Source of the DNA: a virus
Direction: 5' to 3' (one strand)
DNA: 27,165 bases
IMG/VR virus record: IMGVR_UViG_3300021225_000200
Span: 1 to 27,165 of that record
Positions within the stretch are counted from its first letter, which is position 1. The number at the start of each line of letters is the position of its first letter. The translations under genes were made by a program, and so were the position numbers. Positions 1,628-14,424 of this stretch are shown in pieces. The notes under the pieces are model-generated. The model was not told the DNA's origin. It made no database searches and saw only the letters and a list, made by a program, of their open reading frames with translations.

Positions 1628-1867
1628 ATGCCACGCGATTACAAACAGGAATACAAAACACAGGTAGCAAGGGGTGAACACCCCGACAGGATGGAGCGGC
1701 AACGTGCCCGCAGGAAGCTTGATGCAGAAGGCGTAGCCCGCAAAGGCAAAGATGTAGCCCATGTCAAAGCCCTGAGCAAGGGCGGTTCCAACTCAGACGG
1801 TGTGAAGCTGCAATCCCCGTCGCAGAACAGAAGTTTTAAACGTCGATCTGACGGCAGCATGAAATGA
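1628..1867 (+). CDS. Small HNH-like nuclease protein
   Basis: A basic 79-residue protein. The segment at residues 41-69 (GKDVAHVKALSKGG, then N-rich SPSQNRSFK) matches the HNH/McrA-type pattern: a D-V-A-H first strand, the KGG turn and a late Asn. No zinc cysteines are present. The N-terminal half is a charged helix rich in Arg. HNH proteins nick or cut DNA, and small phage versions sit beside replication and packaging genes. It lies 8 bases after the previous gene with AGGAG ahead, and its stop overlaps the next start (ATGA), so it should be translationally coupled to the primase-helicase. Catalytic activity is uncertain because the protein is short. Confidence 0.6.
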   Translation: MPRDYKQEYKTQVARGEHPDRMERQRARRKLDAEGVARKGKDVAHVKALSKGGSNSDGVKLQSPSQNRSFKRRSDGSMK

Positions 1868-3549
1868 TAGAGGCCATGATCGAGAGGTCTGGCTTTGATC
1901 AGACCGGTAGGATTGCTTGCCCCTACTGTTCCAATGAGCGCAAGAAAACAAACCAGAAGGATATGACCCTGACACGCAAGCCTGACGGCGCGGTTGTGTA
2001 TCACTGTCATCACTGTTCTGCAAGCGGATCAATACAACCCAAGGAGATTAAATTGTCAGCCGTCCCCGTCCTCAAGATAGATAACCAAGTCCTCCAGCCT
2101 TTTCACTACGACTACCTTCAGTCGCGGGGCATATCAAAACAGACCGCAGACCGCATGCGGTTATTCGGTGCAGATAAGTTCTTCCCCAAACTCGACCGCC
2201 ACTCAGATGCAATAGCATTCCCCTACTACCGAAACGGTGCATTGGTCGCAGTTAAATATCGCAGCTTCCCCGAGAAAGCGTTTACACAAGATGCAGGCGG
2301 AGCGCATGACTTCTTTGGTATCGATCAGCTTGAGAAGGGTAAGCCTATCATCATCGTAGAAGGTGAGATTGATTGCCTCACATTGATGGAGGCAGGAATA
2401 GAGAACGTGGTGTCAGTGCCGAGCGGTGCCCCCATCAAAGTAGCAGACGGCAAGGTTCTGCCCAGCGAAGACAAGCGGTTCAGTTATGTATGGAACGCAG
2501 TAGAGTATTTAGATGCAGCCCCGTATGTCATCCTAGCCACAGACCAAGACACCGCAGGGCAAGCACTGGCAGAAGAGTTGGCCCGTAGGATTGGCAAAGA
2601 GAAATGCAGGCTTGCAAAGTTCGATGCAAAAGACCTCAACGAAATATTTCTCAACGACCCTTCAACGCACGACCCCTCAACGCAGATACGCGAGATACTG
2701 GACGCTGCCCTCGCCTACCCCATCGCGGGCCTGTCCGAAGCCACGACGTACAAAGACCGTTTAAACGACCTGTACGCACGCGGCACCGGCAAGGGATTCA
2801 GCACCGGTTATAAGTCCATCGATGACATTTACACGGTGGCACCTGCCCAGCTAACGGTGGTCACCGGATACCCATCGTCCGGTAAGTCCAACTTCGTTGA
2901 CCAGATCACCGTTAACCTAGCGAGAAACGACGATTGGAAGTTCGCCATCTGCTCGTTCGAGAATCAGCCCGAGATCCACATCACCCGACTGATGGAGATC
3001 TACACCAAAAAGCGGTTCTTCGACGGTAAAAACAGAATGACGGATCAGGAGAAGGAAGAAGCGTTTAAATGGGTGAACGACCATTTCCTGTTCATCGATA
3101 CAAACGGGGATGAGCCTTCGACCCTTGAGTCGATCCTGACCCGCGCCAAGGTGGCGATCAAGCGCATGGGTGTGCGTGGTCTGGTGATCGACCCCTACAA
3201 CTTTATTGATCTGACCCGCAACTCGACCGAGACCGAGGCCATCTCGGACATGCTCACCAAGGTGCAGCGGTTCGTCAAAGCCCACGACCTGCATTGCTGG
3301 TTCGTTGCTCACCCCGCCAAGGTCAATCGCACAGGCATGGAGCAGCCCCGACCGGACGGCATGAGCATCAGCGGATCGATGGCATGGTGGGCTAAGACCG
3401 ACTGCGGCATCACGATCCACCGTAAAGAAGGGTTTGTAGAGATGGCGGTGTGGAAGTGCCGCCACCGCTGGGTGGGCACTCAGGGCGAGACAACCCTGCT
3501 ATTCAATACTACGTCCGGCACGTACAGTGAAAACTTAGATATGTTTTAG
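1864..3549 (+). CDS. DNA primase-helicase (T7 gp4 / Twinkle type)
   Basis: The 561-residue product makes RNA primers and unwinds DNA at the phage fork. An N-terminal zinc ribbon (C19, C22, C48, C51) recognises the template. The TOPRIM domain (about 160-260) shows IVEGE with E167 and D227-Q-D229. The RecA-like DnaB-type helicase follows, with Walker A GYPSSGKS (335-342), Walker B ending at D443, VAHP with H483, and the SGSMAWWAK loop near 505. Length and domain order match T7 gp4 (566 residues). ATGA overlap with the upstream gene decides the start. It ends in a convergent gap with a bidirectional terminator. No phage DNA polymerase is visible in the window. Confidence 0.95.
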   Translation: MIEAMIERSGFDQTGRIACPYCSNERKKTNQKDMTLTRKPDGAVVYHCHHCSASGSIQPKEIKLSAVPVLKIDNQVLQPFHYDYLQSRGISKQTADRMRLFGADKFFPKLDRHSDAIAFPYYRNGALVAVKYRSFPEKAFTQDAGGAHDFFGIDQLEKGKPIIIVEGEIDCLTLMEAGIENVVSVPSGAPIKVADGKVLPSEDKRFSYVWNAVEYLDAAPYVILATDQDTAGQALAEELARRIGKEKCRLAKFDAKDLNEIFLNDPSTHDPSTQIREILDAALAYPIAGLSEATTYKDRLNDLYARGTGKGFSTGYKSIDDIYTVAPAQLTVVTGYPSSGKSNFVDQITVNLARNDDWKFAICSFENQPEIHITRLMEIYTKKRFFDGKNRMTDQEKEEAFKWVNDHFLFIDTNGDEPSTLESILTRAKVAIKRMGVRGLVIDPYNFIDLTRNSTETEAISDMLTKVQRFVKAHDLHCWFVAHPAKVNRTGMEQPRPDGMSISGSMAWWAKTDCGITIHRKEGFVEMAVWKCRHRWVGTQGETTLLFNTTSGTYSENLDMF

Positions 3550-4411: not shown

Positions 4412-6082
4412 TTATGCTGCAAGCTTGATTTGTTTAAACGATGCGTTACCAATGTCTTCCGCCGATTTGATGCGGATCGATTTGGGGTAGATATGCTCGA
4501 CATCCAGCCCGATGCCGATGCCCACGGTGCTGATGCCCAGCGACTCGCCAGCCTTGACCTGCGCTGCGGTAGCGTCCTCATTGCCCACGCCGTCAGTGAT
4601 AACGAACACCGCCTTGCGCTGCTCGGGGCGGTAGGCCAGCACTTCGTGTGCGTAGCGCACCGCTTGGTAATCGTTGGTGTCGCCGCCAGTCCACACCTGC
4701 GCCAGCTTGGACAGGCCACGCGCCAGTGGCTCATCAAAGCCCTTAAACACCGCAGTGCGCGACCCGAAGGTGTGCAGTGATACCTTAACACCAGCGCGGG
4801 TCAGGGTGTCCAGCAGCGCAGCCGTGGCCTTGATAGCGTAGTCCATGTAGCAGTATTTCTGATAGCCGCCCGCTGCGTTGAGTAATGCATTGCCCATCGA
4901 GTCAAACAGGTAGTGCTCATCGAACATGGATCCACTCACATCCAGCGCCACGACCACCGCAGAATCGACCCCGTCAGATTCCAATCGGCGTTTAAACAAA
5001 CGGTCACTGGTGGAAACCTTGGGCAGGGCGCGGACGTTCAGCGATCCAGCACGGCGGTTGACCTGCCACTCATCATTGGCGGTATTCTCGAACAGGCGGC
5101 GCACCTCATAGCGCAGGCGGGCGTTGGCGGTAATGCTGATGTCCCATGCCTGATTGTGGCGGGTATGGCGGTCAGCCTTTGCTACACCGGACTGGTTGGA
5201 GTAGGTGCCGTCACCCTTGCCGTCAGCGGTCAGGCTTGGCTCGGTCTCGGTGGCGGTGGCGCGAGGCGCTACAGGCTTGGCACGACCAGCCGTGGCTGGC
5301 TTTTTCGGTTGACCCGCACCCTTACCCTTACCCTGCCCTTTATCGTCGCCGTTTGACCCCTTCTGATCGGCCTCAGACCCATCGCCAGCAGTGCCATCCG
5401 CACCGTCTGCACCGTCCGCGCCATCGGATCCGTCCGCGCCGTCTTCGCTCTTTTCTTCGCCCTTGTCGTTGCTCTTGCCATTGCCTTGCAGTTGGCTCAG
5501 GATCCACTTTGCCAGCGCCAATGTATCGGCAGTGCTGGTGCATTGGGTGATGCGGCGCTGCGCCTCGGTCAGGATCCACTCGTGGCCTTGCGCGACTGGC
5601 ACGGTCTTGCCATGCAGGCGTAGGTTGACGGCAAAGCTAAAGGGATAGCGGCTGGTGTCTGACCAGTCTTTGACGTTGTCCATCGCCTGATCGACCATGC
5701 CATCGACCAGCACCGTCAGCAGTTGCTCGACATTGCCCGTCAGTCCCTCGCGGATAGCGCGGTTCTCAATCCATGCATCTTCCACGCCGTTGTGCAGTTG
5801 GCGCAGGTACTGACCGCTGCTAGAGCGGACAACATCGAAGTCCGTCCACTGGCGGTGCAGCAATTCGTGCAGCACAAAGCCAGCGTATTTCCACACCAGC
5901 GCCTCAGTGACCACTGCATCGTCCACCACATTGGCAAGCATAACGTGACCGTAGCGGTTGACGGCTGCGGTGGTGATGCCGCTAGTCCACTCGATGCTGA
6001 TGGTCATGCCGAGATCGGCGGCGATTTTGTGTGCGGCTTTTTCGACACCGCTGCGGAATTGAATACCGTTTAAACGTTTCAT
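4412..6082 (-). CDS. HExxH metallopeptidase plus vWA protein (CobT/DUF2201-like)
   Basis: 556 residues. The N-terminal domain has HELLH (72-76) and then NGVEDAWIENR (99-109), the zinc-ligand pattern of the putative metallopeptidase half of DUF2201/CobT-like proteins. A low-complexity acidic Gly/Asp/Lys linker (about 200-300, ADGADGADG repeats) follows, like the acidic middle of CobT. The C-terminal vWA domain has the MIDAS residues D381-x-S383-x-S385, T469 and D497. In bacteria such proteins are activated by a partner MoxR/CobS AAA+ ATPase, which is encoded immediately upstream. The start at 6082 has AGAGG and sits 10 bases after the ATPase stop. An upstream in-frame extension would overlap the ATPase gene and is out of character. 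The substrate is unknown; cobalt chelation is unlikely without other cob genes. Confidence 0.85.
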   Translation of the reverse strand: MKRLNGIQFRSGVEKAAHKIAADLGMTISIEWTSGITTAAVNRYGHVMLANVVDDAVVTEALVWKYAGFVLHELLHRQWTDFDVVRSSSGQYLRQLHNGVEDAWIENRAIREGLTGNVEQLLTVLVDGMVDQAMDNVKDWSDTSRYPFSFAVNLRLHGKTVPVAQGHEWILTEAQRRITQCTSTADTLALAKWILSQLQGNGKSNDKGEEKSEDGADGSDGADGADGADGTAGDGSEADQKGSNGDDKGQGKGKGAGQPKKPATAGRAKPVAPRATATETEPSLTADGKGDGTYSNQSGVAKADRHTRHNQAWDISITANARLRYEVRRLFENTANDEWQVNRRAGSLNVRALPKVSTSDRLFKRRLESDGVDSAVVVALDVSGSMFDEHYLFDSMGNALLNAAGGYQKYCYMDYAIKATAALLDTLTRAGVKVSLHTFGSRTAVFKGFDEPLARGLSKLAQVWTGGDTNDYQAVRYAHEVLAYRPEQRKAVFVITDGVGNEDATAAQVKAGESLGISTVGIGIGLDVEHIYPKSIRIKSAEDIGNASFKQIKLAA

Positions 6083-6092
6083 TGTGTGCCTC

Positions 6093-7571
6093 TTAGATGT
6101 TGGCGCGGATAAAGTCCGCCGAAATATAGGTGGCCTTGATCGCCTCAATGGCGGTAGCCGACTCGGACGGCTGGCGGTGTCCGATGGACGCAGCCCATGC
6201 CTCATCGACACCCAGCACTGCGACCGACCGAATGAAGGCCATCACCTGACGGATCGATGGCGCATCGATGATGTCGCCGCTGGTCACCTTGGCGCGGCAG
6301 GCGTGGACGGCGCGTAGGACATGGTCAGCCAGCGCCTCAGTGCATCCGGTATGGCGCACCACTGCGTTGATTTCATCATGCAGCGACAGGTGTTTAAATG
6401 CTACAACCCGAGCGAAGCGATCAGCCAGTGCCGAATTCATCTGACGGGTGCCAGCGTAGCGGCCTGACTCATCGCCGTTGGTCAGGGTGTTATCGGCAGC
6501 GAACACCAGCACATCAGGCGCACGGCGGCGGACGGCACCGCCATAGGACACCGCACTATTTGGCTCTAGAAAACCGTTCAGCGTAGCCAGCGCAGCAGGG
6601 TCTGCATTGGTGATTTCGTCCAGCAGGATCAGGGTGGCAGGCGTGGTGAAAGCTTTTAGGAAGTCACCCTCGGTGAACACGGTATCGCCGTTGACCAGTC
6701 CCATCGCGCCGATGTAATCCTCGCTGGTGGTGTACTTATGGAAGTTGATTCGGCAGTAACCGCGACCAGTGCGAGCGGCGAATTGTCGGACGGTCTCAGA
6801 TTTGCCAGTGCCTTTTTCACCGCCGAACCACAAGTTTTCTCCGGTGGACTGCGATAGCAGCAGGTGCTTAAGGATCGACTCAGTCCACACAAAGCATGGA
6901 TCGATGGCGGGTGCGGCAGGGTTGTCATAAACATCGACCAGCAATTCATTGCCCTTCGCGTCATAGACATCGACACCGAACACCTGCGAGACCGGAGCGG
7001 TCTTGACCTTGGACACCGAGACCATCTGTCCTACCACGGTCTGAGCGCCAGCCGCCACGACTGCAGCCTCAAAGGGTTTAAACGCATCACGCACTGCATC
7101 CGCGACCTGACCCTGCACTAGTGCTGGATCGATCTGCGCCAGCTTGTCCACGTTCAACGCGAGACCGCGCAAGCCCTTGTCAATGGCCTCGATAGCCTCG
7201 ATGATCACGGGCTGGCCTTGCTCTACGACGTCCAGTCGATCCAGTGCGCGGGACAGTTTGCTCATAGTGTCCAGCGAGCGCTGGTCAGCACGGTCAGCGA
7301 CCGTACGCACAGGGTGCAGCGCCTGCTCAATCTGCACGGTGTCACGCACTGAGTCCGCCACGGCAGCAGCGGTGGGGTGTCCTACTGGCAGGGGCGCGGC
7401 ATTGCGCACATCAGCCAGTGTGTAGGGGCCGCCGTTGCGAATCTCACCAGCCATCATCTCGGCGGCGTTTTCTTTGCCCAGCCACTTCGAGTTGCCGTGA
7501 AACTGGCGGAACGCGCCATGCACAACCGCGATGGGCAGTTGCAAGATATCGATTTTGTGATCCAGTGCCAT
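6093..7571 (-). CDS. MoxR/CobS-type AAA+ ATPase
   Basis: 492 residues. The AAA+ core holds Walker A GEKGTGKS (251-258), Walker B LILLDE (314-319), sensor-1 Asn in FAADNT and the arginine-finger segment ALADRF. After Walker A come the MoxR/CobS-like features YIGAMG and GPL-type insert strands. The N-terminal 200 residues are mostly helical and hold a coiled region (about 95-180) not seen in minimal MoxR proteins. MoxR ATPases remodel vWA partners. That partner follows 10 bases downstream, so the two probably form one complex. The start MALDHKIDIL at 7571 has GGAG 8 bases ahead and lies 2 bases after the SprT-like gene's stop. T4-like cyanophages also carry a cobS-like gene, but not in this setting. 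Confidence 0.88.
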   Translation of the reverse strand: MALDHKIDILQLPIAVVHGAFRQFHGNSKWLGKENAAEMMAGEIRNGGPYTLADVRNAAPLPVGHPTAAAVADSVRDTVQIEQALHPVRTVADRADQRSLDTMSKLSRALDRLDVVEQGQPVIIEAIEAIDKGLRGLALNVDKLAQIDPALVQGQVADAVRDAFKPFEAAVVAAGAQTVVGQMVSVSKVKTAPVSQVFGVDVYDAKGNELLVDVYDNPAAPAIDPCFVWTESILKHLLLSQSTGENLWFGGEKGTGKSETVRQFAARTGRGYCRINFHKYTTSEDYIGAMGLVNGDTVFTEGDFLKAFTTPATLILLDEITNADPAALATLNGFLEPNSAVSYGGAVRRRAPDVLVFAADNTLTNGDESGRYAGTRQMNSALADRFARVVAFKHLSLHDEINAVVRHTGCTEALADHVLRAVHACRAKVTSGDIIDAPSIRQVMAFIRSVAVLGVDEAWAASIGHRQPSESATAIEAIKATYISADFIRANI

Positions 7572-7573
7572 GC

Positions 7574-8158
7574 TTATTCTCCAAGGTTGAAAGTGTCGCC
7601 ATCGACAGGGCAGGACGGCAGTCCCATTGCAGCCCACTTAGCGGTGAGCCGGACGGTGTAGCCGCAGCTTGGGCAGCAGGCTTTGAGCATGCGCGTGGCC
7701 TGCGTCTTGCGGGTAGCCATCGACAGTTGGGCATGCGGGTAGTCGCCCAGCCCGTCAATGATCGCGCCAAAGGCAGCGCGGAAGGCATCCCCGCCAGTGG
7801 TGGCTTTGTAGCCAGCTTTGCCAGCAGCAGGGACTAGGTGCATGGCATCCGCCGCCTTGCGGAAGTTAACTCCGTGGTTCATAGCGCCCGAAACGGTGTG
7901 GCACAACTCATGCACCAAGATGTCGGCGACTCGCATAGGGTCTGCGATAGTGGGGGAGATAAGTATCTCCATCGATTTGTCAGCGCTGGCAGTGTCTGCC
8001 CAGCACTCGCCGACTGCGCCGCTGCGCTTGGCGCTGGAAGGGAAACCACAGGTGACGCGCACCTTGGCTGCGATAGGGCTGGCATAGGCTGCGAACAGAG
8101 GGCGGAATTCCTCCACGGCTGCGACCAGCCATTCTTCACGGGTGTTGTAGATTTTCAT
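7574..8158 (-). CDS. SprT-like zinc metalloprotease-fold protein
   Basis: 194 residues. HELCH (83-87) followed by H95 in MNHG is the SprT/WSS-type zinc site. The C-terminus has a zinc ribbon with C161, C162, C165 and C183. SprT/Spartan proteins cut proteins cross-linked to DNA, and phage versions are poorly studied. It is the second HExxH protein in this operon, just upstream of the AAA+ ATPase. GGAG lies about 11 bases before the ATG. Alternatives are an anti-restriction or host-takeover protease; the family call is firm, the target unknown. Confidence 0.82.
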   Translation of the reverse strand: MKIYNTREEWLVAAVEEFRPLFAAYASPIAAKVRVTCGFPSSAKRSGAVGECWADTASADKSMEILISPTIADPMRVADILVHELCHTVSGAMNHGVNFRKAADAMHLVPAAGKAGYKATTGGDAFRAAFGAIIDGLGDYPHAQLSMATRKTQATRMLKACCPSCGYTVRLTAKWAAMGLPSCPVDGDTFNLGE

Positions 8159-8988: not shown

Positions 8989-9227
8989 TACTAACCCGAC
9001 TAAACCATATGGTTATTGATTGGAACAGGAAAAACAGGCTCACCAGTGACTAATGGATATACGCGATGCGCATGCGTAGCACAGGTCATGCCAGCAGGTG
9101 TCGCCAAGGTAACAAACTTATCAGAATTTGAACGGATCTGAGCCACTTTAGGGGGTTCAAGCACCCTACCCCTTGACCCATGCGCTGAAGTCGCTCTATC
9201 GCGTTTTTCACTATTTTGGTGCATTTT

Positions 9228-9278
9228 TTATCCACAATTTGCGGTGGATAACTTTACTTATGCACAGGCTGTGGATAA
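9228..9278. promoter_or_regulatory. Cluster of four DnaA boxes, candidate origin
   Basis: TTATCCACA at 9228-9236, the near-match TTATCCACC on the minus strand (9243-9251), TTATGCACA at 9258-9266 and TTATCCACA on the minus strand (9270-9278) alternate in orientation within 51 bp. They fit the TTATNCACA consensus for host DnaA. The cluster lies at the divergence point of the two transcription units, a usual place for an origin. No replication initiator gene is visible next to it, which fits use of host DnaA. DnaA-dependent transcription control is the alternative. Confidence 0.65.
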
Positions 9279-9357
9279 CATTGGGCCACGAACAGTACTG
9301 TTTAAATGCACAGTGCTGTATACTTGACCAGTAAAGACCACGCAAAGGGCTAAGACT

Positions 9358-9951
9358 ATGGGTAAGACAACGTCGATAGAGTATCTCAATGCATTAGAGG
9401 ATGCCGCGCAGCAGAGCGGAGAGGATCAAGCAGACCAATGGTCTGATACTGACGCTGAGATGCTGGCGGCAGCAGCAGAGGCACCAGCAAAGCGCAAAGA
9501 CGGTCAGGTCATAACCGCCCCGAGGCAGAGGCAGTTAACCCCGAAACAGTTGGCCTTCGTAAGAGCCAAGATATCAGGTATGAGCAACGCAGATGCCTAT
9601 AGGGAAGCATACCCAGATGATCACAGTAGCAACAGGGTGATCAGTGCCAACGCATACAAGCTGACAAGGCACCCAGTGATAGGACAAATGCTGGAGGATG
9701 CATGGGGAGAGACGGCAGAGGCGTTGACGGAGGATCTAGCAGCGACAAAGAGATATGTACTGAGGCAGCTACTTGCACTGAGCAAGGGAGCCAAGCAAGA
9801 GGGCAGTCGGCTCAAAGCACTGGAGCTAATGGGCAAGGCAGCAGGTGTGTTTACACCGCAGGTAGACACCAAAGAGGCAGCACCAACGGCAGACCAACTG
9901 AAGCGGGAGCTATCCGGTCACCTGAAGCTGCTGGGTGGCAAGGCGGCGTAG
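9358..9951 (+). CDS. terS: Terminase small subunit
   Basis: 197 residues. LTPKQLAFVRAKISGMSNAD (60-79) and AYREAYP start the helix-turn-helix domain typical of small terminases, followed by helices that would form the oligomerisation part. The protein binds the packaging site and delivers DNA to the large subunit. The first 55 residues are acidic and Ala/Gln-rich and probably disordered. The large subunit gene lies 450 bases downstream, separated by a LexA-type gene, an unusual interruption. The start ATG at 9358 has only AAGGGC roughly 12 bases ahead. Confidence 0.8.
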   Translation: MGKTTSIEYLNALEDAAQQSGEDQADQWSDTDAEMLAAAAEAPAKRKDGQVITAPRQRQLTPKQLAFVRAKISGMSNADAYREAYPDDHSSNRVISANAYKLTRHPVIGQMLEDAWGETAEALTEDLAATKRYVLRQLLALSKGAKQEGSRLKALELMGKAAGVFTPQVDTKEAAPTADQLKRELSGHLKLLGGKAA

Positions 9952-10171
9952 TGTGTAAACGGGAGGTGGTTTAAACGGCAGGGCGAGACCCCACCGTACC
10001 CCCACCCGCCTATATGTGCCGCATGCGCCCCCGCCTACGTTACGCTCTAATCCGCTCTAACGATTACATAGCTACATACCCCCATCCAAGACTTATCCCC
10101 ACCCCCCGGGGGTATATATATTTTTCCAAAAGATAGTTGCGAACGTTCTCAATATCGTTTAAACTCGCAGA
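9952..10171. other. 220-bp gap with C-rich tract and two GTTTAAAC copies
   Basis: The gap between the small terminase and LexA-type genes holds no ORF. It contains GTTTAAAC at 9969 and 10157, a strongly C-biased stretch (about 10000-10105), an AT run (TATATATATTTTT near 10113-10125) and the operator-like palindrome at 10137. Strand-biased base composition next to packaging genes could mark a pac or cos site. Confidence 0.5.
10137..10165 (+). promoter_or_regulatory. Operator-like palindrome over a candidate promoter
   Basis: TTGCGAAC and GTTCTCAA (10137-10152) form a 16-bp inverted repeat with seven of eight pairs, centred on GAACGTTC. TTGCGA, 17 bases, then TAAACT would be a promoter whose -35 lies in the palindrome and whose -10 lies in a GTTTAAAC copy. 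The start point would fall at or next to the ATG at 10172, so the mRNA could be leaderless. No ribosome site is seen. A site like this ahead of a LexA-type gene suggests self-repression. Confidence 0.5.
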
Positions 10172-10402
10172 ATGACTCAACGCAGACAGCTAGTCTTGGA
10201 TTTCATCAGGGCCTACATTAGGCTTCATGGTGTATCTCCGTCATATGAGGTGATAGCTAGGTCTTTGGGGATGTCTTCTAAGTCCAATATCCACCGAATA
10301 GTTCACCGGTTGAAGGAGGATGGGCATATTGAGCTGAAGCCTTATAAGTTTCATTCCATCAAGTTGGCGGATAAGTCCATGAAGGAGATAGCCAAGCTAT
10401 GA
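10172..10402 (+). CDS. LexA-type winged helix DNA-binding protein (no protease domain)
   Basis: 76 residues matching the N-terminal domain of LexA: TQRRQLVLDFIRAYIRLHG (2-20), VSPSYEVIARSLGMSS (21-36) as helix-turn-helix, then a recognition helix and a wing ending HIELKP. LexA itself is about 200 residues with a C-terminal self-cleaving peptidase, which is missing here. It is therefore a stand-alone regulator that could compete for or mimic LexA sites, or control the packaging genes. It sits between the two terminase genes, overlaps the large subunit gene by ATGA, and has a GAACGTTC palindrome just upstream. Confidence 0.75.
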   Translation: MTQRRQLVLDFIRAYIRLHGVSPSYEVIARSLGMSSKSNIHRIVHRLKEDGHIELKPYKFHSIKLADKSMKEIAKL

Positions 10403-11898
10403 CTCTCCTTACAGCCAAAGAGATCTCGGGGTATTTGAGTATTGTGGATAAAGTCCCTGATACCGAGCGGGCCAAGATTAATATGCTCTTGGAGATGGAC
10501 AGGGTTGAGAAGTGCAAGGAGTCGTTCTTGTTCTTTGTCCAGCAGATGTGGCCCATATTTATCTCGGGGCAGCATCACAAGATCATGGCAGATGCCTTTG
10601 AGAGGGTTGCCAATGGCACCCTGAAGAGGTTAATCATCAATATGCCTCCTCGTCACACTAAGTCGGAGTTTGCTTCTTACCTGCTGCCGGCGTGGTTTTT
10701 GGGGAAATTCCCGGAGAAGAAGATCATCCAGACTGCTCACACCGCAGAACTCTCCACAGGATTTGGACGTAAGGTGAGGAATCTGGTCTCCTCTGAGGAT
10801 TATGCGAAGGTGTTTGATACCAAGCTGTCCTCGGACTCAAAGGCAGCCGGTCGGTGGAACACCAACAAGGGCGGGGATTACTTCGCTATTGGTGTGGGTG
10901 GAGCCGTCACTGGTAAGGGTGCAGATCTATTGATCATTGACGATCCCCATTCGGAGCAAGAAGCCAAACAAAATAACCCAGCCATCTTTGACGGGGTATA
11001 TGAATGGTATACCTCCGGGCCTCGTCAGCGTCTTCAGCCTAACGGGGCAATTATCATCGTGATGACCCGATGGGCCACCCGAGATTTAACTGGGCAGATC
11101 CTCAAAAAATCCGGCAACGATGGAGTAGATGAATGGGAAGTTATTGAGTTCCCCGCCATTCTCCCGTCCGGAACTCCCCTGTGGCCCGCCTTCTGGTCTA
11201 AGAAAGAACTTGAATCCCTCAAGGCAGAACTACCAGTCGCCAAATGGGAAGCGCAGTACCAACAGAACCCCACCGGCAACGAGGGGGCGATTATCAAAAG
11301 GGATCAGTGGCGCATCTGGGAAAAAGACAGCATGCCCCAGTGTGAATACATCATCCAGTCTTGGGATACCGCCTTCGAGAAGAATAACCGCGCCGACTAC
11401 TCCGCCTGTACCACTTGGGGAATATTCGAACACCCGGATGACAAAGGTGATTACAAGACCAACATCATCTTGTTAGATGCGTTTAAACAACGTATGGAGT
11501 TCCCTGAGCTTAAGAAGATGGCCCTTGAGCTATATAAGCAATGGGAGCCAGATACCTTGATTATCGAGAAGAGGGCTGCTGGCGCACCCCTTATTTATGA
11601 GTTGCGCAAGATTGGAGTTCCCCTATCTGAGTACACACCGGGTAAGGGCAACGACAAAATAAGCCGTGTAAACTCTATTGCAGACCTATTTGCCTCTGGG
11701 GTTGTATGGTGTCCGACAACACGCTGGGCGGATGAGGTTATGGAAGAACTAGCCGCATTCCCCAATGGGGATAACGATGACTTGGTTGACTCCAGCAGCC
11801 AAGCATTAATGCGGTTTCGGCAGGGTGGATTTATTCAAATTGCCTCTGATGAAGAGGATGAACCACCCATCTTTCGGCGTAAATACGAATATTACTAA
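10399..11898 (+). CDS. terL: Terminase large subunit
   Basis: 499 residues, the normal size. The ATPase domain has Walker A PPRHTKSE (83-90), Walker B DLLIIDD ending at 181-182, and the coupling segment MTRW (222-225). The RNase H-like nuclease domain has D323 (SWDTAF), E390 (LIIEKRAAG) and D464 (DLVDSSSQA). It pumps DNA into the prohead and cuts the concatemer. The start overlaps the LexA-type gene by ATGA, and the portal gene follows after 9 bases. Confidence 0.96.
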   Translation: MTLLTAKEISGYLSIVDKVPDTERAKINMLLEMDRVEKCKESFLFFVQQMWPIFISGQHHKIMADAFERVANGTLKRLIINMPPRHTKSEFASYLLPAWFLGKFPEKKIIQTAHTAELSTGFGRKVRNLVSSEDYAKVFDTKLSSDSKAAGRWNTNKGGDYFAIGVGGAVTGKGADLLIIDDPHSEQEAKQNNPAIFDGVYEWYTSGPRQRLQPNGAIIIVMTRWATRDLTGQILKKSGNDGVDEWEVIEFPAILPSGTPLWPAFWSKKELESLKAELPVAKWEAQYQQNPTGNEGAIIKRDQWRIWEKDSMPQCEYIIQSWDTAFEKNNRADYSACTTWGIFEHPDDKGDYKTNIILLDAFKQRMEFPELKKMALELYKQWEPDTLIIEKRAAGAPLIYELRKIGVPLSEYTPGKGNDKISRVNSIADLFASGVVWCPTTRWADEVMEELAAFPNGDNDDLVDSSSQALMRFRQGGFIQIASDEEDEPPIFRRKYEYY

Positions 11899-11907
11899 GG
11901 ATACCCA

Positions 11908-14424
11908 ATGGCTAATTTTGATAAAAGTTTGTACCAAGCCCCCGCTGGGCTGGATGAATTGGCAAAGGCAGAAGACGGAATCGAGATTGAGATTGTCGAT
12001 CCCGAGGCAGTGAACATCCACATGGATGGCCTAGATATATCCCTAGAGCAAGTCGATGCAGATTTTGGTTTAAACCTCGCAGAAGAAATGGACGAGGGTG
12101 AACTGTCCTCCCTCGCAGGAGATCTGGACGGAGATATCTCCAACGACAAAGGCAGCCGCAAAGACTGGGAGAAAGCCTACACAGAGGGTTTAAAGCTTCT
12201 GGGCCTCCAGTTCGAGGAGCGGACAGAGCCTTGGCAAGGTGCCAGCGGTGTCTTCCACCCCATGATCACAGAGGCAGTTGTAAGGTTCCAGTCAGAGAGC
12301 ATCACCGAGATGTTCCCTGCACAAGGCCCGGTTCGGACAAAGATCATCGGAGAAGAAACCCCCGAGAAGAAAGAAGCCGCAGTTCGTGTCGAGGATGACA
12401 TGAACTATGAACTCACGGAGGTGATGAAGGAGTTCCGCCCTGAGATAGAGCGCATGCTCTGGAGCCTGCCTGCGACCGGCTCTGCCTTCAAGAAGGTGTA
12501 TTTTGATCCCAATCTAGGACGCCAAGTGTCCATGTTCATCCCCGCAGAAGACATCATTCTTCCGTATGGGACGACAGATCTGGATACCTGCTACCGCTTG
12601 ACCCATGTCATGCGCAAGACCAAGAACGAGATCATCAAACTCCAACAGGCAGGCTTTTACCGGGACATCGATCTCCCAGAGCCCGGCAAAGAACAAGACA
12701 ACATCAAACGAGCCAAGGACAAAGAGACCGGTTTTAGTGATTTAAACGATGACCGCTACACCATCTATGAGGTTCATGCAGACCTAGACCTGCCCGGATT
12801 CGAAGATGAAGACGAAGATGGCCCGACCGGCATCGCCCTGCCCTATGTGGTCACCATGATCAAAGGCAGTAACAAAGTCTTGGCTGTCCGCCGTAACTGG
12901 AACGAGGATGACAAGCTGCGTTTAAAGCGCCAGCATTTTGTCCATTACCAATACATCCCCGGATTCGGTGCTTATGGCTTTGGACTGTTCCACCTTATCG
13001 GTGGTTTTGCCAAGTCTGCTACAAGCATCATGCGCCAGCTTATTGACGCAGGTACTTTGTCAAACCTGCCCGGTGGATTGAAGTCTCGCGGTCTGCGGAT
13101 TAAAGGTGATGACACCCCGATCCAGCCCGGAGAGTTCCGCGACGTAGATATCGGCTCTGGCGCTTTGCGCGACAACATCCTGCCCCTTCCTTATAAGGAG
13201 CCAAGTCAGGTTCTAGCAGCCCTTCTTGGAACTATCGTGGAAGAGGGTCGCCGCTTCGCAGCCACAGCGGACATGAACATCAGCGACATGTCTGCTCAGG
13301 CTCCTGTGGGCAGTACCTTGGCTCTGCTTGAGCGACAACTCAAGGTGATGACCGCCATCCAAGCCCGCCTGCATTACACGTTTAAACAGGAACTTGGTCT
13401 TCTCGCTGAGATTATTAAGGATTACACCGACCCCGACTATGACTACAAGCCGGAAAAGGGTGATAAGAGCGCCAAACGGGAAGACTATGACTATGTAGAG
13501 ATCATCCCCGTATCTGATCCCAACGCAGCCACCATGAGCCAGCGCGTGGTTCAGTATCAGGCTGTTATCCAGATGGCCCAGATGGCTCCGGATATCTATG
13601 ACCTCCCCCAACTGCACCGTCGTATGCTGGAAGTCTTGGGGATTAAGAACGCAGATAAGCTTGTAAAACTCCCGGAAGACCAGAAACCAATGGATCCAGT
13701 ATCGGAGAACATGTCTGTTCTGCGTGGGGAGCCGGTGAAGGCGTTCTTCTACCAAGACCAAGACGCTCATATCACGGCTCATATGGCTTTCATACAAGAC
13801 CCCTTGATCGCCCAGTCCGTTGGTCAAAATCCCCGTGCCCCGCAGATACAAGCCGCAATGATGGCTCATATCGCAGAACACGCAGGGTTTAAATACCGCG
13901 CTCAGATTGAGCAGCAGATGGGTATCTCCCTGCCTCCGCAAGATGATGAGTTGCCACCGCAAATTGAGCTTGCCCTGTCTACCATGATTGCTCAGGCATC
14001 CCAGCAGGTTCTACAGCAGAACCAAAGCCAAGCAGCCCAGCAGCAGGCACAGCAACAAGCCCAAGACCCGCTGGTTCAGATGCAGCAACAAGAACTCCAA
14101 ATCAAACAGGGTGAGTTGCAGCTTAAGGCCCAAGAGGCACAACAGAAGTTCCAGATAGAGCAGGCTCGTCTGGAGTTGGATACAAAACGTCTGGCAGCAG
14201 ACGCAGCAAACAAAGCTGACCAAAACAACCTCAAGCGCGAAGCCATACAGGCGGACATGCAACTTGAAGGTACAAAGATTGGAGCAAAGATCAAAGCCGA
14301 TCAGGAACGGCAGACCTTTGACCAAGAACACGCCGGGCTCAAGCTTGGCGCACAGATCTCTAGAGAAAAACGAGATCAAGCCCTGTCTGCTATGCAGGCA
14401 GTCGATAAATCAGAAGGTGTTTAA
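11908..14424 (+). CDS. Portal protein (P22-like)
   Basis: 838 residues, longer than P22 gp1 (725). The dodecameric portal is the DNA entry channel and tail attachment point. The central body (about 100-600), with WQGASGVFHP, LPATGSAFKKVYFDP and the QRVVQYQAVIQMAQ helix, matches large podovirus-type portals. The last 150 residues are a long Gln/Ala/Lys coiled coil that may form the barrel. AAGGA lies 6 bases before the ATG. It follows the large terminase and precedes co-chaperonin and scaffold genes. The stop is embedded in a GTTTAAAC copy. Confidence 0.9.
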   Translation: MANFDKSLYQAPAGLDELAKAEDGIEIEIVDPEAVNIHMDGLDISLEQVDADFGLNLAEEMDEGELSSLAGDLDGDISNDKGSRKDWEKAYTEGLKLLGLQFEERTEPWQGASGVFHPMITEAVVRFQSESITEMFPAQGPVRTKIIGEETPEKKEAAVRVEDDMNYELTEVMKEFRPEIERMLWSLPATGSAFKKVYFDPNLGRQVSMFIPAEDIILPYGTTDLDTCYRLTHVMRKTKNEIIKLQQAGFYRDIDLPEPGKEQDNIKRAKDKETGFSDLNDDRYTIYEVHADLDLPGFEDEDEDGPTGIALPYVVTMIKGSNKVLAVRRNWNEDDKLRLKRQHFVHYQYIPGFGAYGFGLFHLIGGFAKSATSIMRQLIDAGTLSNLPGGLKSRGLRIKGDDTPIQPGEFRDVDIGSGALRDNILPLPYKEPSQVLAALLGTIVEEGRRFAATADMNISDMSAQAPVGSTLALLERQLKVMTAIQARLHYTFKQELGLLAEIIKDYTDPDYDYKPEKGDKSAKREDYDYVEIIPVSDPNAATMSQRVVQYQAVIQMAQMAPDIYDLPQLHRRMLEVLGIKNADKLVKLPEDQKPMDPVSENMSVLRGEPVKAFFYQDQDAHITAHMAFIQDPLIAQSVGQNPRAPQIQAAMMAHIAEHAGFKYRAQIEQQMGISLPPQDDELPPQIELALSTMIAQASQQVLQQNQSQAAQQQAQQQAQDPLVQMQQQELQIKQGELQLKAQEAQQKFQIEQARLELDTKRLAADAANKADQNNLKREAIQADMQLEGTKIGAKIKADQERQTFDQEHAGLKLGAQISREKRDQALSAMQAVDKSEGV

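Follow-up and report, generated by a model that had tools for sequence, protein, structure and literature searches.

A conserved DnaA-box array before the terminase genes of an uncultured podovirus-like phage group as a candidate host-dependent replication origin

Bacterial replication origins (oriC) carry clusters of TTATNCACA R-boxes together with an AT-rich unwinding element, and DnaA recognition is known in the forms TTWTNCACA and TTGTCCACA. Tailed phages of about 60 kb usually bring their own polymerase or initiator. DnaA boxes at phage and plasmid origins are already known in kind, namely from P1 (PMC5043065) and lambda (PMC3985674). The P1 oriR is an extrachromosomal replicon with host DnaA boxes at its origin, and in lambda, host DnaA sites near the phage control region link transcription to replication, with origin and promoter roles that can coincide. 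No description of DnaA-box arrays before phage terminase genes was found in the literature (open-licence papers).

The locus described here lies in a window, that is, the whole stretch of DNA analysed, of 27,165 bases; it is an IMG/VR virus record for which end repeats were not reported, and it is probably a fragment. The locus resembles a bacterial oriC in having a cluster of consensus boxes in both orientations, an AT-rich stretch and a non-coding divergence region. Unlike oriC, however, it belongs to phage genomes of about 60 kb, lies before terS and not before dnaA/dnaN, varies in layout and offers only a candidate unwinding element. The phages with the array are similar to P1 oriR in that host DnaA boxes are placed on an extrachromosomal replicon, although P1 also needs RepA iterons; the window clade yielded no iteron set. 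Neither integrase nor ParA was detected in 15 group genomes, and this lack argues against a phage-plasmid lifestyle. Lambda uses its own O/P initiator and weak sites, whereas the present group has strong consensus arrays and no recognised initiator. CtrA-controlled alphaproteobacterial phages (lytic deferment) are alike in that sites for a host cell-cycle regulator are clustered in phage intergenic control regions; the CtrA study tested DnaA sites too, and reported no positional clustering in its phages (PMC9437464).

The original prediction was that four DnaA boxes alternate in orientation within 9228-9278, at a density very unlikely to arise by chance and at a point of transcription divergence. 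Pattern search located all four boxes there in the order + - + - (Table 1). They sit in non-coding DNA, flanked on one side by a leftward SprT/MoxR/VWA block and on the other by a rightward operon of terS, a helix-turn-helix (HTH) gene, terL and portal, an order that is kept in relatives. The place of box 2 holds a perfect TTATCCACA box in a relative (L016), and boxes 3 and 4 form a convergent pair with a 3-bp gap. Exact TTATNCACA matches number four in the window versus 0.83 per dinucleotide shuffle, and at least three exact boxes within 300 bp were obtained in 0 of 1000 such shuffles, which bears out the low chance density. Single-mismatch sites show no excess over the whole window (22 versus 19.6 expected), so the signal resides in the clustering of exact boxes. 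A fifth exact box, TTATCCACA on the minus strand at 10443-10451 within terL, was judged incidental, as it lies in coding sequence and is shared by close relatives only.

Table 1. Features of the window around the DnaA-box array (positions in the window)
Feature	Position	Strand	Remark
TOPRIM + DnaB-type primase-helicase	1864..3549	+	
VWA/CobT-like protein	4412..6211	-	
MoxR-type AAA ATPase	6093..7637	-	
SprT-like protein	7574..8158	-	closest conserved leftward gene
Least stable stretch of upstream region, candidate unwinding element	9204..9231		directly left of box 1
DnaA box 1	9228..9236	+	TTATCCACA, perfect
DnaA box 2	9243..9251	-	TTATCCACC, one mismatch at position 9
DnaA box 3	9258..9266	+	TTATGCACA
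DnaA box 4	9270..9278	-	TTATCCACA, perfect
Conserved element	9288..9319	+	CGAACAGT, then two ACAGTRCTGT palindromes (9292-9301, 9310-9319)
TATACT, possible terS -10 hexamer in window clade (weak)	9319..9324	+	sequence
terS, terminase small subunit	9358..9951	+	first gene of rightward operon; phrog_51, E 3e-11
LexA-DNA-binding-domain-like HTH protein, 76 aa	10172..10402	+	PF01726, E 4e-11
terL, terminase large subunit	10399..11898	+	phrog_38, E 1e-102
Portal protein	11908..14424	+	

Left of the SprT/MoxR/VWA block lie a PDDEXK nuclease and the primase-helicase. An open reading frame adjoining the array (9000-9224) was considered as a leftward gene and set aside as probably not conserved: its match in one relative (G011) is broken into two pieces, with alignment gaps that differ by one base. 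The conserved element between the array and terS is likely to be an operator or promoter-proximal element of the terS operon. Its palindrome pair can also be read as a LexA-like CTGT-N8-ACAG site (9298-9313); control by SOS/LexA was rejected because this motif is present in some lineages only. The LexA-like HTH protein has no peptidase domain and lies between terS and terL in 12 of 12 relatives examined; it might bind the ACAGTRCTGT sites or the GTTTAAAC sites described below. In translation, the contig start (1-75) gives ...LPLCPYTTLFRSG, as Illumina adapter sequence usually does, and the window therefore probably begins with an assembly artefact.

Relatives were collected through TerS, and the 99 loci with upstream sequence were reduced by upstream similarity to 36 lineages. 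These were defined by applying a k-mer rule to this very upstream DNA; they share ancestry and are not fully independent. At least two strict TTATNCACA boxes precede terS in 33 of the 36 lineages. Allowing A/T at position 1 and A/G at position 3 brings this to 35 of 36 lineages with at least two DnaA-type boxes, so that the conservation in related phages on which the original prediction had in part been made to depend is found; the lineage L023 has zero boxes. Perfect TTATCCACA boxes upstream of terS number 89, where the group's own genomes predict 0.71. A de novo search for frequent 9-mers before terS, made in a smaller set of 21 lineages, gave the E. coli DnaA box as the commonest (0.07 per set in shuffles). 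In 18 long relatives the boxes mostly form one cluster, with few boxes elsewhere, and group genomes have three to nine boxes each at one fixed site. The convergent pair with a 3-bp gap is the commonest neighbour geometry of the group (14 pairs). Relatives of 58-64 kb have the same gene order as the window, and three of them show a 123-base terminal overlap, which is typical of a circular assembly.

The pattern of variation among the boxes fits that of DnaA, judged from the sequences. Single mismatches occur 22, 31 and 24 times at positions 1, 3 and 5, and 0, 2 and 0 times at positions 2, 4 and 8. Between relatives at 81-92% TerS identity, the flanks align while the arrays differ in number, order and orientation of boxes. 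This turnover between conserved flanks indicates that the boxes themselves are selected and not merely inherited. Neither a DnaA AAA+ domain nor a DnaA HTH domain was found in the group, and a DnaA or DnaA HTH protein encoded by the phage was accordingly rejected as the reader of the boxes. Since neither a DnaA gene nor a DnaA DNA-binding domain was found in the group, host DnaA presumably reads them.

The gene content points the same way. The phage encodes its own primase-helicase, as originally noted, and this is the sole replication-fork protein recognised in the group. PolA was not detected in 16 group genomes that are near-complete or long (10 of 58-64 kb, five further of 58-65 kb, and G011), nor were PolB and Pol III alpha in the first 11 of these 16, those tested for both. 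With a primase-helicase but neither a DNA polymerase nor DnaA recognisable in the phage, initiation driven by the host becomes more plausible. By TerL, the nearest annotated phages are 023Pt_psg01, DSL-LC04, HTVC027P and HTVC023P at 52-58% identity, so the group has no cultured member in that phage collection; nor did the terS region match the collection by DNA similarity. A weak hint at the host comes from one related contig, which had been placed in a bin with a Burkholderiales MAG. The HTVC023P-type pelagiphages and DSL-LC04 are alike in size (about 60 kb), but have PolA, a separate primase and helicase, and no array. PolA is present in four of the four sisters and the array in none, an association that compares one clade with four sister phages. 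A more distant relative, Pag-Yong1, shares the primase-helicase, VWA and ATPase genes with the group and has neither PolA nor DnaA boxes. At the place syntenic to the array it carries nine same-strand GTCATACR direct repeats (L280 26225-26571), which suggests that this region serves as a control site, read by different factors in different hosts or lineages. The GC content of the Pag-Yong1 record, 69%, is odd for a Planktothrix phage.

We propose that the array is a cis-acting, host-DnaA-dependent origin of phage replication, to which we assign a probability of roughly 0.55. Host DnaA would bind the cluster of high-affinity boxes and melt the adjoining AT-rich stretch, and the phage primase-helicase and/or host DnaB could then be loaded at the array. 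As no recognisable DNA polymerase comes with the phage, host Pol III would copy the phage genome from forks started there. The number of boxes, their two orientations, the single fixed site, the gene content and the low-stability stretch are all consistent with such an origin. In low stability, the candidate unwinding element ranks at the 99.7th percentile of the window. The excess at group level is modest; 23 of 35 lineages have a low-stability stretch to the left of their array. Low stability near the array gave a Fisher p of ~1e-4 over 12 non-independent genomes without an intergenic control, and the AT-rich stretch is not exceptional in the window clade (p 0.16 in the window, 0.54 in G011).

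The origin call had also looked to GC skew. Of 10 near-complete relatives, only 5 have their skew minimum within ~4 kb of the array, the maximum coincides with the switch in gene direction (about 42-45 kb) in most genomes, and strand correction shifts most minima. As the skew follows gene direction, it cannot decide the origin and was dropped as support. What stands of that call is the candidate itself, now with conserved boxes, a DnaA-type mismatch pattern and the divergence point. Against an origin are the PolA-less Pag-Yong1 and the lineage L023, both of which lack DnaA boxes.

In many lineages the array borders directly on a -10-like TATAAT/GCGAACAG element, and DnaA control of the terS promoter is therefore the main rival. 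DnaA over the -35 region or spacer of the terS promoter, and possibly also at the leftward one, would repress or activate the packaging and structural operon, and late expression would follow the DnaA-ATP state of the host. A -10-like hexamer next to the last box counts against the origin, as it fits promoter control equally well. Among 31 lineages the key A and T of the hexamer are kept in 65% and 87%, an invariant-like GCGAAC / GCGAACAG follows it, and in several lineages the last box lies between -10 and -35 or overlaps -10. A role of DnaA in regulating transcription is known (PMC8203912), promoters near the lambda origin are stimulated by DnaA (PMC3985674), and host-regulator sites that control phage genes have been documented for CtrA (PMC9437464); an unrelated podovirus lineage also has boxes just before its terminase. 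However, there are four to nine boxes, many of them 100-250 bp upstream, which is beyond the needs of most DnaA-regulated promoters. The layout of the array relative to the promoter varies, and the window clade has no -10 element at the conserved place and no consensus promoter; no full sigma-70 promoter match was found near the terS of the window. We consider promoter control unlikely, though by no means negligible; if true, it would be the DnaA equivalent of phage development gated by CtrA.

Host DnaA may also serve as a cell-cycle or growth sensor that gates both the start of replication and packaging or late expression from one compact site, a site that would have been placed independently before the terminase in apparently unrelated podovirus lineages, the group of the window and the L303/L294/L338/L313 group. 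Such joint gating would be the DnaA counterpart of the CtrA-controlled phages, and we regard it as a rather unlikely, tentative idea. Improbable, in our view, is a DnaA sink, in which replicating phage DNA would titrate DnaA so that host chromosome initiation stops and the replisome is freed; the same low weight covers a variant in which the phage DNA would promote hydrolysis of DnaA-ATP, as datA does. The boxes are mostly consensus high-affinity sites, and copy number during infection would multiply them. Each genome has only three to nine, though, at one fixed site by a promoter-like element and conserved flanks, and a sink could sit anywhere and would not need a fixed position.

Still more doubtful is that a phage-encoded protein reads the repeats, such as TerS acting at a pac (packaging) site, and that their likeness to DnaA boxes arose by convergence. 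The array lies directly before terS, the GTCATACR repeats of Pag-Yong1 take its syntenic place, and 18 aligned TerS proteins are well conserved in their C-terminal half. Yet both the consensus and the positions that tolerate mismatches are exactly those of DnaA, a coincidence that is unlikely over nine positions plus their tolerance, and such boxes are also found in unrelated phages whose terminases differ. Chance or functionless inherited sequence, for which only the small size of a 9-mer speaks, is already contradicted by the shuffles and by the surplus of perfect boxes across lineages together with their turnover, and its probability is practically negligible.

What appears to be new is a whole uncultured podovirus-like group that has no recognisable polymerase and keeps, where transcription diverges before terS, an array that is oriC-like and freely rearranged. 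With the array as a host-DnaA-dependent origin, this widespread group would show how a phage can hand initiation over to its host, and a minimal working DnaA-box layout could be read from the many naturally rearranged arrays. The prediction is that phage replication (or terS expression) fails when host DnaA is inactivated.

Arrays of this kind were also seen outside the group. When viral contigs were scanned for a single convergent-pair pattern, at least 119 stretches matched. Among the matches listed, 15 of 80 examined loci belong to the group of the window, and some loci outside it, on contigs from putative viruses, carry denser arrays. In one of these (L303 5042-5536), 17 boxes lie inside a 500-bp stretch immediately ahead of a terminase-portal module that is of a different type. 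Together with L294, L338 and L313, L303 represents podovirus-like contigs with a different terminase and, before the terminase genes, dense arrays of mostly TTGTCCACA boxes. The nearest complete relatives of the L303 group, DSL-LC05 and MW202483, have no array. The podovirus MW202483.1 encodes a 98-aa protein consisting of a DnaA HTH domain only (L396 31423-31719; PF08299, E 1e-17), yet is without the array of its relatives.

Two further repeats were noticed. Tandem 11-bp repeats, TTACGTGAAAC / ACGTGAAACTT, lie left of the array in L016 (about -163 to -144 before terS), L025 and L263; ACGTGAAACTT was rejected as a general iteron, being confined to these three, with related single motifs in a few more. 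The 8-bp palindrome GTTTAAAC has 16 copies in the window (e.g., at 9969, 10157, 11481, 12068 and 14419) and 15-52 per genome in most group members (also G001-G007 and G009-G012), where below about 1.2 are expected. G008 has only two copies. The sister phages have 0-3, a count that covers part of the genome in three of them, and the palindrome is not enriched in a Burkholderiales MAG. No paper on GTTTAAAC repeats was found in the literature. The copies occur in coding and non-coding DNA without a flanking consensus, and GTTTAAAC may be a protein-binding or modification site.
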